From: a virus
Strand: one strand, 5' to 3'
IMG/VR virus record: IMGVR_UViG_3300047277_000013
Span: 1 to 43,197 of that record
Length of the DNA stretch: 43,197 bases
Of the stretch, positions 2,272 through 43,197 are shown piece after piece. Position numbers and translations under genes: made by a program. Under the pieces are notes generated by a model. It was not told the DNA's origin and ran no database searches. It worked only from the letters and a program-made list of their open reading frames with translations. Every line of letters begins with the position of its first letter. Within the stretch, counting starts at the first letter, position 1.

Positions 2272-2358
2272 GGTTGTATAGTCCTATGATTAAGGTAATT
2301 AAATAAATATTGTTAATGGTTGTCTTGATGCAACTATTAATTCGCCAAGAATGGCTGG

Positions 2359-2469
2359 TTAAGTTAAAAGGGTTGCAAGTATGCCGACAACCATCACTAG
2401 TAATGTATAGGTGATCTGGTGGTTGGTCATTGGGTTGTAAGTAGGTGGGACTGGTTTATAGTCTCTCAT
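2359..2469 (-). CDS. Small membrane protein, 36 aa
   Basis: MRDYKPVPPTYNPMTNHQ followed by a hydrophobic helix (ITYTLLVMVVGILATLLT) to the C-terminus, so a single-span membrane peptide with its N-terminus probably in the cytoplasm. Its ATG overlaps the TGA of the 50-aa gene upstream (ATGA), a strong sign of coupled translation and of a real gene. Function unknown. Confidence 0.6.
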   Translation of the reverse strand: MRDYKPVPPTYNPMTNHQITYTLLVMVVGILATLLT

Positions 2470-2618
2470 GAGTACATTGCCTTCATTTTCATTAGTTGTG
2501 CTTTGATCTCAAGACATTCATTGTAAGTGCCTGTATATATGATCTTGTATGAATTACGCTGATCATTACCTTTACAAACTATTACGTTATTGTGTGCATT
2601 CTTTTGTGCTGTGTACAT
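2466..2618 (-). CDS. Hypothetical 50-aa protein
   Basis: MYTAQKNAHNNVIVCKGNDQ, then a segment SYKIIYTGTYNECLEIKAQL and a Met/Lys tail. A compact basic protein with a probable beta-alpha core. It is preceded by AAGAGG and a copy of the ACTATAAC(C)AACC leader element, and its stop overlaps the start of the membrane peptide gene. The layout resembles that of the 64-aa gene upstream, including the segment of type Y-x-x-T-x-N-E-x, so the two may be distantly related. Confidence 0.6.
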   Translation of the reverse strand: MYTAQKNAHNNVIVCKGNDQRNSYKIIYTGTYNECLEIKAQLMKMKAMYS

Positions 2619-2702
2619 GGTGTAACCTCTTAGGTTGTTATAGTTAAAATTTACTAGTTAACCAGCTAATTAATAACTGGTTAAGTGGTAGACTTTATGT
2701 GA

Positions 2703-2897
2703 TTACCACGCTAATTCTTGTGATATACCAACCAGATTCAATTGACCTTTAAAATCACCTCTCTCAGCTCTGTATTTAGCATCTTGCATAAATGCAAACC
2801 CTTGTGCCTCGTTTAGTGTTTCCGCTGTGTAATTCTTAATTACTTCAAGACCTGTAACATGGTTGTAGTAGACTGCTTCGTATGTATGTAAAGTCAT
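2703..2897 (-). CDS. Hypothetical 64-aa protein
   Basis: MTLHTYEAVYYNHVTGLEVI, then a helix around TLNEAQGFAFMQDAKYRAER. A small soluble protein with no known domain. It is the first gene after the 1.4-kb non-coding region, preceded by AAGAGG, the leader element (2912-2924) and a long hairpin (2931-2977). Its place makes it the leader gene of the early accessory operon. Confidence 0.65.
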   Translation of the reverse strand: MTLHTYEAVYYNHVTGLEVIKNYTAETLNEAQGFAFMQDAKYRAERGDFKGQLNLVGISQELAW

Positions 2898-2930
2898 TGT
2901 GTAGCCTCTTATGGTTGGTTATAGTTGTTA

Positions 2931-2977
2931 TTGATATTATTAAGCCACCTCTATTTGAAGAGACTTAATAATATTGA
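2931..2977 (-). promoter_or_regulatory. Strong hairpin in early leader
   Basis: Arms ATATTATTAAG (2934-2944) and CTTAATAATAT (2964-2974) form a perfect 11-bp stem, extended outward by wobble pairs and partly inward (CCTCT/AGAG). It lies in the leader of the first early gene. T7 early transcripts carry RNase III hairpins between genes, so RNA processing or end protection is a reasonable guess. Confidence 0.55.
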
Positions 2978-2989
2978 TTGATGCCTTGG

Positions 2990-3020
2990 TGTATAGTCAC
3001 CAGCCTTATAAAGGTATCAA
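2990..3020 (-). promoter_or_regulatory. Possible host sigma70 promoter for early operon
   Basis: On the minus strand TTGATA (3015-3020) is followed after 18 nt by CTATAC (2991-2996). It is the best -35/-10 pair noticed just upstream of the early genes, but the hexamers are imperfect and it was found by eye. Confidence 0.3.
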
Positions 3021-3280
3021 TCAGAACCGAGTTGTTAAGGAGCAGTAAGCCAGATGGCTTGATTAGTACTATCCTCTTGTTATTACCTTAAGGCAACTAA
3101 TAAAAAAACAAATAGATAAATTAATTTGGCAATCTTAAGGTTATCAATGAGTTATAAAGATAATTATTTATCATTACTTAGGCAATGACTGCGGTTACTG
3201 CTGGTTTATCTGGTGGTTTGTATATAGATAGGTAATTATTGTCTTCAGGATATCTTTTAATAAGAGGGTAGGTTGTTAAA

Positions 3281-3408
3281 GGTTATCTTAGGGTTATCTT
3301 AGGGTATTACTCATTGTATCTCTATATGATACTAATGGTTGTCTTGTGGTGGTCATTAGGTTGTCAATGAGTACTAATAGGTTATCTTAAGGTTATCAAT
3401 AGGTTATC
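3281..3408 (+). repeat. Helically phased GGTTATC iterons
   Basis: GGTTATC occurs at 3281, 3292, 3380, 3391 and 3402, with the variant GGTTGTC at 3337 and 3359. Neighbouring copies are 11 nt apart and most other gaps are close to multiples of 11 (22, 21, 45), so all copies face the same side of the helix. A further copy is at 3139. This is the pattern of an initiator or architectural protein binding array. Confidence 0.65.
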
Positions 3409-3471
3409 TAAGGTAGTAGCGTATCGAAACTAAAAAAAAACAAATTGATGAATGAGTTTTGGAGGCTTATT

Positions 3472-3491
3472 GCTAATGAGAATGATTATCA
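3472..3491. promoter_or_regulatory. Fur-box-like palindrome
   Basis: TGAGAAT-G-ATTATCA (3477-3491) matches 14 of 15 positions of the 7-1-7 Fur consensus TGATAAT-N-ATTATCA, and 3472-3490 matches 16 of 19 positions of the classic E. coli Fur box. It lies inside the non-coding repeat region with no gene start nearby, so it may be a palindrome of another protein. Confidence 0.35.
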
Positions 3492-3865
3492 TTTAGAATA
3501 CAACAGGTTATCCACCAGATACCACCAGCTAACCATTGAAAGAGATATATAATCCCTCGGTCTACCTTATGAATCAATAGGTTACCGCATGATGTACCTA
3601 CTTTGTACCACCTGACAACCTAGGATTTCCTTTAAGATATTCCAGCGGTCAAGCCGAGGAGGGCATAGGGGGAGTTTCAGCCACCGTCCCCACGATATAG
3701 GCTCACATATTTTTATTTCTAAATTATTTCCCACCCTAAGAAGACCTGTGGATAACCACAAGTCAACTAGTAGTGAAGCCTCCAGACAACCAAGGGACAC
3801 CCTCAGTTCCATCTAGGATTGAACAGGTAACTATAGGATCACCTCCTGATAACCATAGGTTTACT

Positions 3866-3940
3866 TTAGCATTTACCTTTACCATTAGACATAGGTGTCT
3901 TACTGTCCTTCTTCTTCTTCTTGTTCTGTTCCTTAGCCAT
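3866..3940 (-). CDS. Tiny lysine-rich peptide, 24 aa
   Basis: MAKEQNKKKKKDSKTPMSNG plus four residues: a highly basic peptide, preceded by AGGAAA 8 nt before the ATG. It would be the first open frame after the phage promoter that follows the large terminase. T7-like phages often have small genes after gene 19. The polylysine run (GAAGAAGAAG at DNA level) could also be chance in a purine-rich stretch. Confidence 0.4.
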   Translation of the reverse strand: MAKEQNKKKKKDSKTPMSNGKGKC

Positions 3941-3980
3941 GATTATTATTTCCTATATATAGTTATTGTCGATTGTTATA

Positions 3981-4047
3981 CCTAAGGTTATCCACATGTA
4001 TAAACTATAGGATTACCTATACACTACCTCATGTGGATTACCTTAGG
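3981..4047. repeat. 18-bp inverted repeat with nested hairpin and DnaA-box-like arms
   Basis: CCTAAGGTTATCCACATG (3981-3998) is inverted at 4030-4047 with 17 of 18 positions kept. Between them ATAGG-ATTA-CCTAT forms an inner hairpin. Each arm contains a DnaA box or near-box: TTATCCACA at 3988-3996 and TAATCCACA (minus strand) at 4032-4040. The 16-nt segment just inside the left arm is also repeated with one change at 3830-3845. A cruciform or a dimeric protein site is likely. Confidence 0.65.
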
Positions 4048-4330
4048 TCTATCTTTATTGTTTATTCTTAATGGTAATAGTACTATGGTCTCAACCACTA
4101 GATACCTTAGGTTAACCTTAAGTATCCTTAGTTGTCTTGTATCACCTATATCACAGAGGAAAACTACAGCTACCCCCCTACCCCCCAAAGGTTACCCCAT
4201 TGGTTAGTAGAAGAATATACTATGTAGATTATCCTTTGTGATGATGTTCATCACTCTAGGTCTCACAGCCAGAGATTGCTCTCAACCTAAAGTGCTATAG
4301 TCAGCAATTAGATTCCCCCCAGTCATATAT
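4048..4330. other. Non-coding stretch after late promoter
   Basis: No gene. The minus strand carries G6 runs at 4170-4187 (G6-TA-G6) and 4314-4319, plus the palindrome TTAGGTTAACCT around 4109-4120. It would be the transcribed leader of the promoter at 4331-4360. Confidence 0.45.
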
Positions 4331-4360
4331 CTCTATATTTCCAATTGGGCAACCAATACT
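4331..4360 (-). promoter_or_regulatory. Phage RNA polymerase promoter P4
   Basis: Minus strand AGTATTGGTTGCCCAATT followed by GGAAATATAGAG. It shares 17 of the first 18 bases with P3 and the core GTTGCCCAAT with P1 and P2. The predicted start is the G at 4342. It lies just after the large terminase stop, like T7 phi-OR, and would transcribe the non-coding region and the early accessory genes. Confidence 0.8.
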
Positions 4361-4400
4361 CTAGGTACTGGTTTACCTGCTGTTAACTAGCGAGTGCTTC

Positions 4401-22925: not shown

Positions 22926-23879
22926 TTAAGCAGTCTTAAGTTCTACAGCAGCAGAAGGTCTCAAAATTCCATGACCTAGTGCATACTTAGCAACCATCAA
23001 AGTACCTTGTCTACGGATGTCGTACTGTGACTCCATACCTAAGTCCATCAACTTAACAGTAGCAATAGCTTCTTTGTGACAAACTACACCAACAGTAGTA
23101 GTTGCAACAACAGCATACTTATCTAAAGTACCTGAAGCTACAGAACCAGCAGCAACCGTAGCACCGAAAGGAGAGTGGTTAGTCTTAATAACATTAATAC
23201 CAGCTACTCGAAGAACTTTAGCACCAGCATATTCACCTTCACCACCCCACCATTGGTTCATGATGTTAGTGTTCTGTGCTAACAAGTAGTAAGCAGCAGG
23301 GGCTAGGTAAACATAACGGTCTTCAGAAGGGATGTTCTTTTCATCCATAATCTGAGCAGCTTTGAATAAACCTGTAACTAAAGCAGCACCAGTTGTATCT
23401 GACAACATAGTTGCACCAGTTACAGAACCACCACCAGACTCACCTGTTACAGGAGAAGCGCCACGAGCAGCCAATAAAGCTAGTTGTAATTTATGTTTGT
23501 CCATTTGGTATGCCAAGGCACGACCAATTTGATCTGAGTATGGAGCACGAACATCATAATGATTCATTGCTTCGTCAATGTTAGCTACGAAAGCATGTGA
23601 GATCAATAGGTCATCAATGGTGACCACTACTTCATTAGCAGGTACGTTTAAACCTACAATTTCAGCACCAGCAACATGATATTCAGCAGCGATCTTACCT
23701 AAGATAGGGAACGAAGCTGATTTGCCATTTGCGATTGAACGCTCTACGAATTTACCATTGGTTACAGTTGTTTCGTTGAATGCAGTTAATACTTCACCAG
23801 CGAACACTTTAAGAAATAGTGCTTTTTTATCGCCAGCGGTATTCGCCTGACCTAAGTTTGATACATTAGCGTTAGCCAT
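22926..23879 (-). CDS. Major capsid protein (T7 gp10-like)
   Basis: 317 aa from the ATG at 23879 (MANANVSNLGQANTAGDKKA), with AAAAGG 9 nt upstream; the frame stays open further upstream but that part is inside the structured leader. HK97-fold pattern of the gp10 family: FAGEVLTAFNETTV, then RSIANGKSASFPILG, then VTIDDLLISHAFVANIDEAM, and near the end DIRRQGTLMVAKYALGHGIL. It is preceded by a 300-nt structured leader and followed by a strong terminator. Confidence 0.95.
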   Translation of the reverse strand: MANANVSNLGQANTAGDKKALFLKVFAGEVLTAFNETTVTNGKFVERSIANGKSASFPILGKIAAEYHVAGAEIVGLNVPANEVVVTIDDLLISHAFVANIDEAMNHYDVRAPYSDQIGRALAYQMDKHKLQLALLAARGASPVTGESGGGSVTGATMLSDTTGAALVTGLFKAAQIMDEKNIPSEDRYVYLAPAAYYLLAQNTNIMNQWWGGEGEYAGAKVLRVAGINVIKTNHSPFGATVAAGSVASGTLDKYAVVATTTVGVVCHKEAIATVKLMDLGMESQYDIRRQGTLMVAKYALGHGILRPSAAVELKTA

Positions 23880-23888
23880 TTTGTTTTG

Positions 23889-24190
23889 CCTTTTGAGTAA
23901 GTTAAAGAAAGTTATTGAGCAACCTTCTAGAACTGCACATCTCTTTAGCCAAGATTGTCTTCCGCAGAAGGTAATGGTGGAGCTGTTCATTCTTGAATTA
24001 TGCAACACCACCGCTATGAAAGCAGTGTGGTTGGACTTCTTTATACTTCAGGTAGGCATACCATGATTACTGTTTCTGGCGTTCAGTGAGTGCGACTCAC
24101 CTTCCTTTTGTAAACGGGAATCTTTTCTAGAATTATCAGACCACGTTGCTTACTCAATAATCATGGGATGCCTACCTGTTACGGTAGGGC
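23889..24190 (-). promoter_or_regulatory. Structured 5' leader of the capsid mRNA
   Basis: The 318-nt gap before the capsid gene has no convincing gene but strong RNA structure on the transcribed strand. A 22-nt stem is formed by 24155-24176 and 24051-24072, with one mismatch and one G-U pair. Inside lies a perfect 6-bp hairpin (GTGAGT-CGC-ACTCAC). Further down are a hairpin CAAC...GTTG at about 23998-24032 and CTTC-UGCG-GAAG, a UNCG tetraloop. CCTACC at 24183-24188 can instead pair with the first 6 nt of the long stem. TTGAGTAAG (24149-24157) is complementary to CTTACTCAA (23893-23901), which overlaps the ribosome site. It could be a regulator, an RNase site or an unknown RNA. Confidence 0.7.
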
Positions 24191-42777: not shown

Positions 42778-43104
42778 TTATTCCCCATCTCTGAGGAGGT
42801 CTTTTAAAAATAGTTTACCCTTGAAAGATAAGGTTAATATCTTTAGTCGTCTATCCATAGGATGTTCAACTGCATCAATTATTCCCATACCTTCTTCGTG
42901 TTTCCTATTGATTTTCCCAAGTTGCGCTAGGTTTCTGCTGGTATTTGCATTGCCTAGATTGAGATTCTTTGAAATTAAAGACAAAGTAGTGCCGCTTTCA
43001 CCAGCCTTTGCAACTTCTAATATGATTAGCATTTGTGATAAAGGGAGTTCCCCATCTAATTGCCTAAATTTATTTAGCAGTAATGTAACAGTCTTAAGTT
43101 CCAT
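42778..43104 (-). CDS. MarR-like winged-helix regulator
   Basis: 108 aa. Helices LSQMLIILEVAKAGESGTTL, then LISKNLNLGNANTSRNLAQL (helix-turn-helix with recognition helix around NANTSRNLAQL), and a wing VEHPMDRRLKILTLSFKGKL. This is a MarR-type fold without a long dimerisation helix. It lies upstream of the integrase gene and is the obvious candidate for a lysogeny repressor or early regulator. Its first 97 nt are also present at the left edge of the contig. Confidence 0.85.
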   Translation of the reverse strand: MELKTVTLLLNKFRQLDGELPLSQMLIILEVAKAGESGTTLSLISKNLNLGNANTSRNLAQLGKINRKHEEGMGIIDAVEHPMDRRLKILTLSFKGKLFLKDLLRDGE

Positions 43105-43197
43105 TGCTATTTATGTCCTATACGATTAATTAATTAATAGTCCTATTATAAATGGTAAACAGCTTGTAGATATGAATACATTTATAATCTTCTGTAT
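43008..43197. repeat. Right copy of terminal overlap
   Basis: 190 bases matching 1-186 with one extra 4-nt unit (ATTAATTAATTAAT against ATTAATTAAT). It includes the regulator's start and its upstream region with a minus-strand TATAAT at 43145-43150. The extra unit lies between that TATAAT and the regulator's ATG. Confidence 0.95.

Follow-up and report, generated by a model that had tools for sequence, protein, structure and literature searches.

A structured RNA leader of the capsid mRNA in T7-like phages

The minus-strand stretch 23880–24032, directly upstream of a major capsid gene, belongs to an RNA family not listed before, which acts in cis as the leader of the capsid mRNA in T7-like phages. 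This leader is non-coding and folds into three hairpins, termed P1, P2 and P3, whose pairs covary. It probably controls cutting, protection or translation of the capsid mRNA, and processing or stabilisation of this message is the role that we infer as most likely.

The capsid leader and its three hairpins

The window, by which we mean the whole 43,197-nt stretch of DNA analysed, is the 43.2-kb genome of a T7-like podovirus whose main genes lie on the minus strand. A terminal direct repeat of ~186 bp is present (positions 1–186 and about 43012–43197), and the record is therefore probably a complete genome. Among named phages, the capsid protein is most similar to that of Bordetella phage BB8 (57% identity), followed by Pelagibacter phages including HTVC019P (47%) and the Prochlorococcus P-SCSP phages (43%). 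A gene-free stretch of ~318 nt separates the preceding small genes from the capsid ATG. In the window, the leader is open in the capsid frame (361-aa ORF); a coding function was rejected, since capsid-frame stops are present in all 22 relatives tested. The conserved element within this stretch comprises positions 23897–24032 of the minus strand, three hairpins before the capsid start that adjoin the segment with the 22-bp stem described below. The features are:

22926–23879, minus strand: major capsid gene, an ORF of 317 aa of the T7 gp10/HTVC019P capsid type, downstream of the leader
23890–23895, minus strand: Shine-Dalgarno sequence AAAAGG just 3′ of P3, unpaired in the consensus; relatives have GAGG or AAGG there
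23897–23938, minus strand: P3, the third hairpin, ending beside the Shine-Dalgarno sequence (covariation, 27 distinct leaders)
23947–23984, minus strand: P2 with its outer helix, within the match of covariance model R1 (23877–24030, 144 bits)
23954–23972, minus strand: P2 core A-C-CUUC-UGCG-GAAG-ACAA-U with a 4-bp stem and a UNMG tetraloop (pairing-blind pattern, covariation, blind scans)
23985–24003, minus strand: linker between P1 and P2 with a conserved AAGAA(C/U) (alignments)
24004–24032, minus strand: P1, with a 5′-strand bulge (CA here) between a short lower stem and an upper stem (covariation)
24009–24027, minus strand: upper stem of P1, CACUGCU/AGCGGUG (helix 1, 100% of cells paired)

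The ~150 nt from the stem-bearing segment to the ATG can be aligned in all close relatives. Covariance model R1 matches 28 leaders at E < 0.001, including that of BB8, and the 27 distinct rows among them were counted. In these rows, 92% of the cells of the three-hairpin structure are paired, and 15 pairs show double changes compared with 7.0 ± 1.5 in shuffled alignments. The covariation score of 0.252 (0.138 ± 0.008 shuffled) is lost if the pairing partner is slid by 1–3 columns. For the helices of P3, 90–95% of the cells are paired in the 27 distinct leaders of the window's clade, with double changes in 9 of 15 pairs. P3 was demonstrated in the window's own clade only, while P1 and P2 are common widely. 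Within the window, R1 has a single significant match.

No Rfam 15 family is matched by the window leader, even at an E-value of 10, or by the leaders of relatives, and we saw no likeness to its families. Around the leaders of 17 relatives, the nearby Rfam matches are upstream tRNAs and, beside one of them, abiF repeats. The earlier claim, made in a sequence-only reading of the window, that the capsid gene is preceded by a structured RNA without a named family thus stands: about 150 nt of it covary in relatives. In the literature searched, which included few subscription journals, no paper was found that reports such a conserved RNA ahead of the capsid gene of these phages. The family may be present, without a name, in large computational collections of phage RNA candidates.

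The 22-bp stem upstream of P1

Upstream of P1, the window carries the following features:

24051–24176, minus strand: 22-bp stem and the segment it encloses, present in this phage only, in place of the variable GC-rich hairpin of relatives
24086–24100, minus strand: small perfect hairpin GTGAGTCGCACTCAC inside the enclosed segment
24170–24190, minus strand: GCCCTACC...GGTAGGC, matching a plain upstream hairpin of the nearest relative

The sequence-only reading had placed a switch here, in which this stem and several alternative pairings exclude each other and reach the ribosome site. The stem itself (24155–24176 with 24051–24072) is present, but it is not perfect, consisting of 20 Watson-Crick pairs, one G.U pair and one mismatch. 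The perfect small hairpin GTGAGTCGCACTCAC at 24086–24100 was confirmed. The proposed competitors can likewise be located in the sequence: the CCTACC segment, the 9-nt match between TTGAGTAAG and CTTACTCAA, the complement of TTATTGAG...GCAAC, and both TTCTAGAA palindromes. In addition, GCCCTACC...GGTAGGC (24170–24190) competes with the outer end of the stem. A 321-nt region folds at –92.3 kcal/mol compared with –70.0 ± 5.6 kcal/mol for shuffles (z –3.96; none of 100 shuffles as good), and the 22-bp stem is the dominant part of this fold.

The segment is not shared with relatives. Among the sixteen close relatives used for this comparison, which were fetched by capsid similarity, none contains the stem-bearing segment. 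The nearest of them, L001, with a capsid 93% identical to that of the window, has the plain GCCCTACC...GGTAGGC hairpin at its place. In 22 relatives, this place is occupied by GC-rich hairpins of unrelated sequence, mostly 20–30 nt before P1. We read the 22-bp stem as a lineage-specific version of the variable hairpin found ahead of P1. The idea that the segment is mobile or repeated was rejected, as no second copy exists in the window, the relatives' loci or the phage records.

A switching leader of the riboswitch or attenuator type, with mutually exclusive structures, is very unlikely. The window does contain alternative complements, but these require a segment that is absent from all relatives. 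Exact complementarity between this segment and the leader extends over 9 nt at most, a length that 65 of 1000 dinucleotide shuffles (6.5%) also reach. A gapped duplex of the two has a more unusual energy (3 of 1000 shuffles), but requires a 27-nt bulge. The case for alternative long-range pairings in the window leader is therefore weak. Because the segment has no match in any collection searched, the proposed switch is not conserved and would be a feature of one phage at best. Conserved alternative pairings with a terminator or ribosome site, which characterise riboswitches and attenuators, were not found across the relatives. Their covarying consensus is a single fold with the ribosome site open, and the Shine-Dalgarno sequence lies just outside P3 and is not sequestered. 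By the refuting condition stated in the sequence-only reading (no covariation or conservation in relatives), the switch is refuted and the leader is not. In short, the sequence-only reading was right about an unusual structured leader outside known families and wrong about which part matters and about switching. A UNCG-type hairpin that it mentioned "further down" is real and corresponds to the tip of P2; the rest of the conserved ~150 nt had been overlooked.

The P2 module and its distribution

P2 contains an asymmetric internal loop, a C opposite AYAM, next to a covarying R-Y closing pair, and is capped by UNMG. In the window, the C lies opposite ACAA and the loop is closed by A-U; most relatives have G-C. 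We define the family module as RC, a stem of at least 3 bp, a cap, AYAM and Y, with R and Y complementary, located 70–135 nt before the start of a T7-like capsid gene. The window hairpin (23954–23972) fits this definition and starts 93 nt before the capsid ATG.

Since the R1 alignment had been fitted to its own model, P2 was tested separately and free of this bias. The pattern [AG]C-N4-TN[CA]G-N4-A[CT]A[AC], which is blind to pairing, was run on 132 leaders of capsid homologues. It gave 57 matches, all located 72–131 nt before the capsid start and all with arms complementary at 4 of 4 positions, whereas nearly all matches elsewhere in these loci (757 kb) have 0–2 pairs. For covariation, 40 distinct P2 sequences were used, 39 from pattern matches plus that of Syn5. 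All 200 pair cells are Watson-Crick, every pair shows double changes, and the covariation score is 0.950 (0.283 ± 0.033 in shuffles). The analysis also revealed the unforeseen closing pair between column 4 (R) and column 22 (Y), which is G-C in 30 and A-U in 10 sequences. If longer apical stems are allowed, the RC-stem...AYAM-Y module is found in 94 of 115 distinct leaders and in 2.8% of shuffles; with a stem of at least 4 bp, the numbers are 67 of 115 and 0.6%. The apical part is a long extra hairpin in several groups, so the constant feature of P2 is the internal loop and not the tetraloop.

Two further ideas about this loop were discarded. A UUG/YAA helix beside it would pair columns 1–3 with 19–21, which is possible in only about half to two thirds of the sequences and is hence not conserved. 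The RC/AYAAC arrangement resembles the peptidyl-transferase loop of 23S rRNA, but the R-Y pair has no counterpart there. In L123, P2 is doubled in tandem ahead of the capsid gene, where GTAAGGCTCTCTGAGGAGAACACCCCTACCAATAAA occurs twice with a single base inserted.

To determine the distribution of P2 without guidance from any gene, 2.9 million viral contigs were searched in three exact-pattern scans, which returned 42, 43 and 35 matches (120 in total). Of these, 41, 36 and 34 (111 of 120) lie in sense 75–123 nt before a T7-like capsid ORF. In five others, an ORF for a LAGLIDADG-type homing endonuclease separates P2 from a capsid gene whose beginning was recognised by eye as P-SSP7-like. Three are too near a contig end to judge, and one (L256), in another context, matches by chance. 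The 257 Gb of cellular genomes searched gave 25 matches, compared with a chance estimate of about 30. The sole capsid-linked case comes from Methylovorus sp. MM2, with the capsid gene 107 nt downstream, and is probably a T7-like prophage; there, a tRNA and P2 precede the T7-like capsid gene on a bacterial chromosome contig (L299, NZ_LXUF01000001.1, 3331–3620).

The hosts of P2-bearing phages include SAR11, cyanobacteria, Roseobacter, Bordetella, Pseudomonas, Rhizobium and others. The motif is absent from the capsid leaders of T7 and ICP3, and because coliphage T7 lacks the element, work on T7 would not reveal the family. What began as a curiosity of a single phage is thus a widespread RNA family, placed before the gene of the most abundant phage protein and shared by T7-like phages that infect SAR11, Roseobacter, cyanobacteria and many further bacteria. 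P2 provides a very specific metagenome marker for the capsid loci of T7-like phages and possibly points to a new RNA-protein pair.

P1, transcript ends and candidate functions

In most leaders, a P1 hairpin is located 5′ of P2, with a bulge in its 5′ strand where a short lower stem of variable sequence meets the upper stem, as in UUC-CA-CACUGCA..UGCGGUG-GAA. The corresponding hairpins read UAGC-CG-CACUGCG..CGCGGUG-GCUA in BB8, AAGU-CG-CACUGGC..GCCGGUG-ACUU in LUZ100 and GACAG-UG-..-CUGUC in RHEph21. The best 5′-bulged hairpin reaches a mean score of 15.8, compared with 8.3 for the 3′-bulged mirror image and 6.2 for shuffles; the 5′ bulge is favoured in 44 of 63 leaders and the 3′ bulge in 12. 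In about a fifth of the leaders scored, no bulged P1 hairpin was detected. The window fits the P1 criterion at 24004–24032, though a 3′-bulged alternative scores slightly higher (18.8 vs 17.8). The bulge itself varies in sequence (CA, CG, UG, A, C or U).

Several members carry tRNA genes shortly upstream of P2 (LUZ100, L014, RHEph21, NATL1A-7 and L299). In cyanophage NATL1A-7, a tRNA-Gly gene takes the place of P1, and in Syn5 and P-SSP7 T-arm-like folds are found there (by eye and by minimum-energy folding), for which ARAGORN calls no gene. These tRNA genes or T-arm-like folds just 5′ of P2 resemble the tRNA punctuation of phage and organellar transcripts, and we expect them to be cut by tRNA-processing enzymes; most members of the leader family differ from such punctuation in having P1 and no tRNA. 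In L014, two matches to abiF RNA (RF03085, 47 and 50 bits; 1812–1893) lie just before the tRNA-Asn gene and the capsid leader.

LUZ100 is the one member with a usable mapped transcriptome (PMC10134795). Its capsid promoter phi7 is local and located ~560 nt upstream (PMC10134795), which places the LUZ100 element within the transcript. The terminator regions given there span –60 to +40 around the 3′ end (PMC10134795). The positions of 3′ ends were calibrated with intrinsic terminators, which end in U-runs, and with T14, which ends 2 nt before the 5′ end of tRNA-Asn, as tRNA processing predicts. The non-intrinsic 3′ end T15 coincides, to about 2 nt, with the CG bulge in P1; this position is one point from one phage and is derived from the –60/+40 convention. 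No comment on this end was found in the searched text of PMC10134795. As a single, indirect observation, the T15 end is what cutting at P1 would give.

The same data bear on two other explanations. P2 could act at the DNA level, as a promoter of a phage RNA polymerase or a protein-binding palindrome, and its Watson-Crick-only stem as well as the similar distance of phi10 in T7 would agree with this. However, the motif of the mapped LUZ100 promoters, ATTACCACACAG, bears no relation to P2 and is located far upstream, so that the published LUZ100 promoter data consulted rule out P2 as a promoter, and the repeated promoter-like motif of the window, GTTGCCCAAT, is equally unrelated. Moreover, G.U pairs are kept in P1 and P3, and the AYAM side is asymmetric with respect to strand and is found in sense in every case. 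Repetition of the motif before other genes of a genome, at the mapped start site, as expected of such a promoter, was not observed, as judged from LUZ100, the window's repeats and the single R1 match. We therefore consider a DNA-level element highly improbable. The 200 pair cells of the P2 stem contain no G.U pair, although P1 and P3 tolerate them. Either this short stem is strongly selected for stability, or an extra constraint acts at the DNA level. The P3 loop GGTTGCTCAATA was also rejected as a promoter: it is one base off GTTGCCCAAT, but ~2–3 such matches are expected by chance, and the flanks differ. The window contains four minus-strand copies of a promoter-like motif with the consensus GTATWRGTTGCCCAATWGRA (at 4353, 27943, 38658 and 41413) in or beside intergenic stretches, which are candidate promoters of the phage's own RNA polymerase.

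The second explanation is a self-cleaving ribozyme, in which the P1 bulge would be cleaved and the P2 internal loop would belong to the active core. The LUZ100 3′ end at the P1 bulge and the invariant C and A residues of P2 are in line with it, but there is no match to an Rfam ribozyme, the bulge varies, and tRNAs or tRNA-like folds replace P1 in some cyanophages, so a ribozyme seems very improbable.

In T7, RNase III makes a single cut in bulged or asymmetric-loop hairpins between genes and so defines the 5′ ends of mRNAs. The new leader resembles these RNase III signals and stabilising hairpins in placing such hairpins between phage genes, but P1 is shorter, its bulge is different, and nothing in T7 corresponds to the P2 module; the gene 10 leader of T7 measures about 63 nt, begins at phi10 and lacks the motif. 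If our reading is right, the leader would work like the processing and stabilising hairpins of T7 without being one of them. P1 would be a processing hairpin, nicked at its 5′ bulge to set the 5′ end of the capsid message. The C/AYAM internal loop of P2 would be a specific docking module for an RNA-binding factor, candidates being a host RNase, a ribosome-associated protein or a phage protein. Together with P1 and P3, the bound factor would stabilise the message or aid ribosome loading, with P3 keeping the Shine-Dalgarno site free. As a net effect, the capsid mRNA would be more plentiful and longer-lived than its co-transcribed neighbours. We give this complete model, in which the leader sets the 5′ end of the capsid message and shields it, roughly even chances. 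Against it, a classic RNase III substrate would be longer than P1, and the bulge of P1 is not constant in sequence. The leader offers a handle on how phages raise capsid output from shared late transcripts.

The chief rival to processing and protection is a translational operator, in which the capsid protein, the scaffold or some other late phage protein binds P2 and lowers or raises capsid synthesis. Coat proteins of RNA phages as well as RegA and gp43 of T4 bind operators of this kind. Those of the MS2, PP7 and Q-beta coat proteins are likewise small hairpins that are linked to the capsid gene and marked by a specific internal loop or bulge. They differ in belonging to another class of phage; P2 lies ~90 nt before the start, away from the ribosome site, and its binder is only putative. 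A covarying stem that carries a sequence-specific internal loop and a UNMG cap argues for an operator, as does the exclusive linkage to one gene in phages of hosts from many phyla, which suggests a phage-encoded partner; the motif is also missing in T7 and ICP3, whose capsids are more distant. On the other hand, P2 is located 72–131 nt before the start codon without overlapping the Shine-Dalgarno sequence, and we know of no HK97-fold phage capsid that binds its own mRNA. On balance, we treat an operator as a possible but doubtful explanation. As a point against the protection model, the strict conservation of the P2 internal loop may reflect a specific binder that represses rather than protects. 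We tentatively consider, at clearly less than even chances, that the P2 loop is the recognition site of a phage-encoded regulator, perhaps the capsid protein, or that P1-P2 is a new RNA which is cleaved specifically, or cleaves itself, and so matures the capsid mRNA. If true, this would be, to our knowledge, the first case in which an HK97-fold capsid regulates its own synthesis at the RNA level, or a maturation of capsid mRNA in a large share of T7-like phages.

Finally, some observations concern the surroundings of these leaders. In the window, 2.1 kb following the terminase gene (2272–4400) are free of long ORFs and contain many short GATAACC/GACAACC repeats. The loci in which an endonuclease ORF follows P2, about 450 nt before the capsid gene, are L208, L231, L238, L239 and L244. 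In L012, a group I intron (RF00028, 56 bits; 3362–3949) with an HNH-type ORF resides inside the capsid gene, and HNH genes are annotated before the capsid gene in the Roseobacter phages CRP-403 and CRP-804. From the intron and these HNH genes, the capsid locus looks like a homing hot spot.
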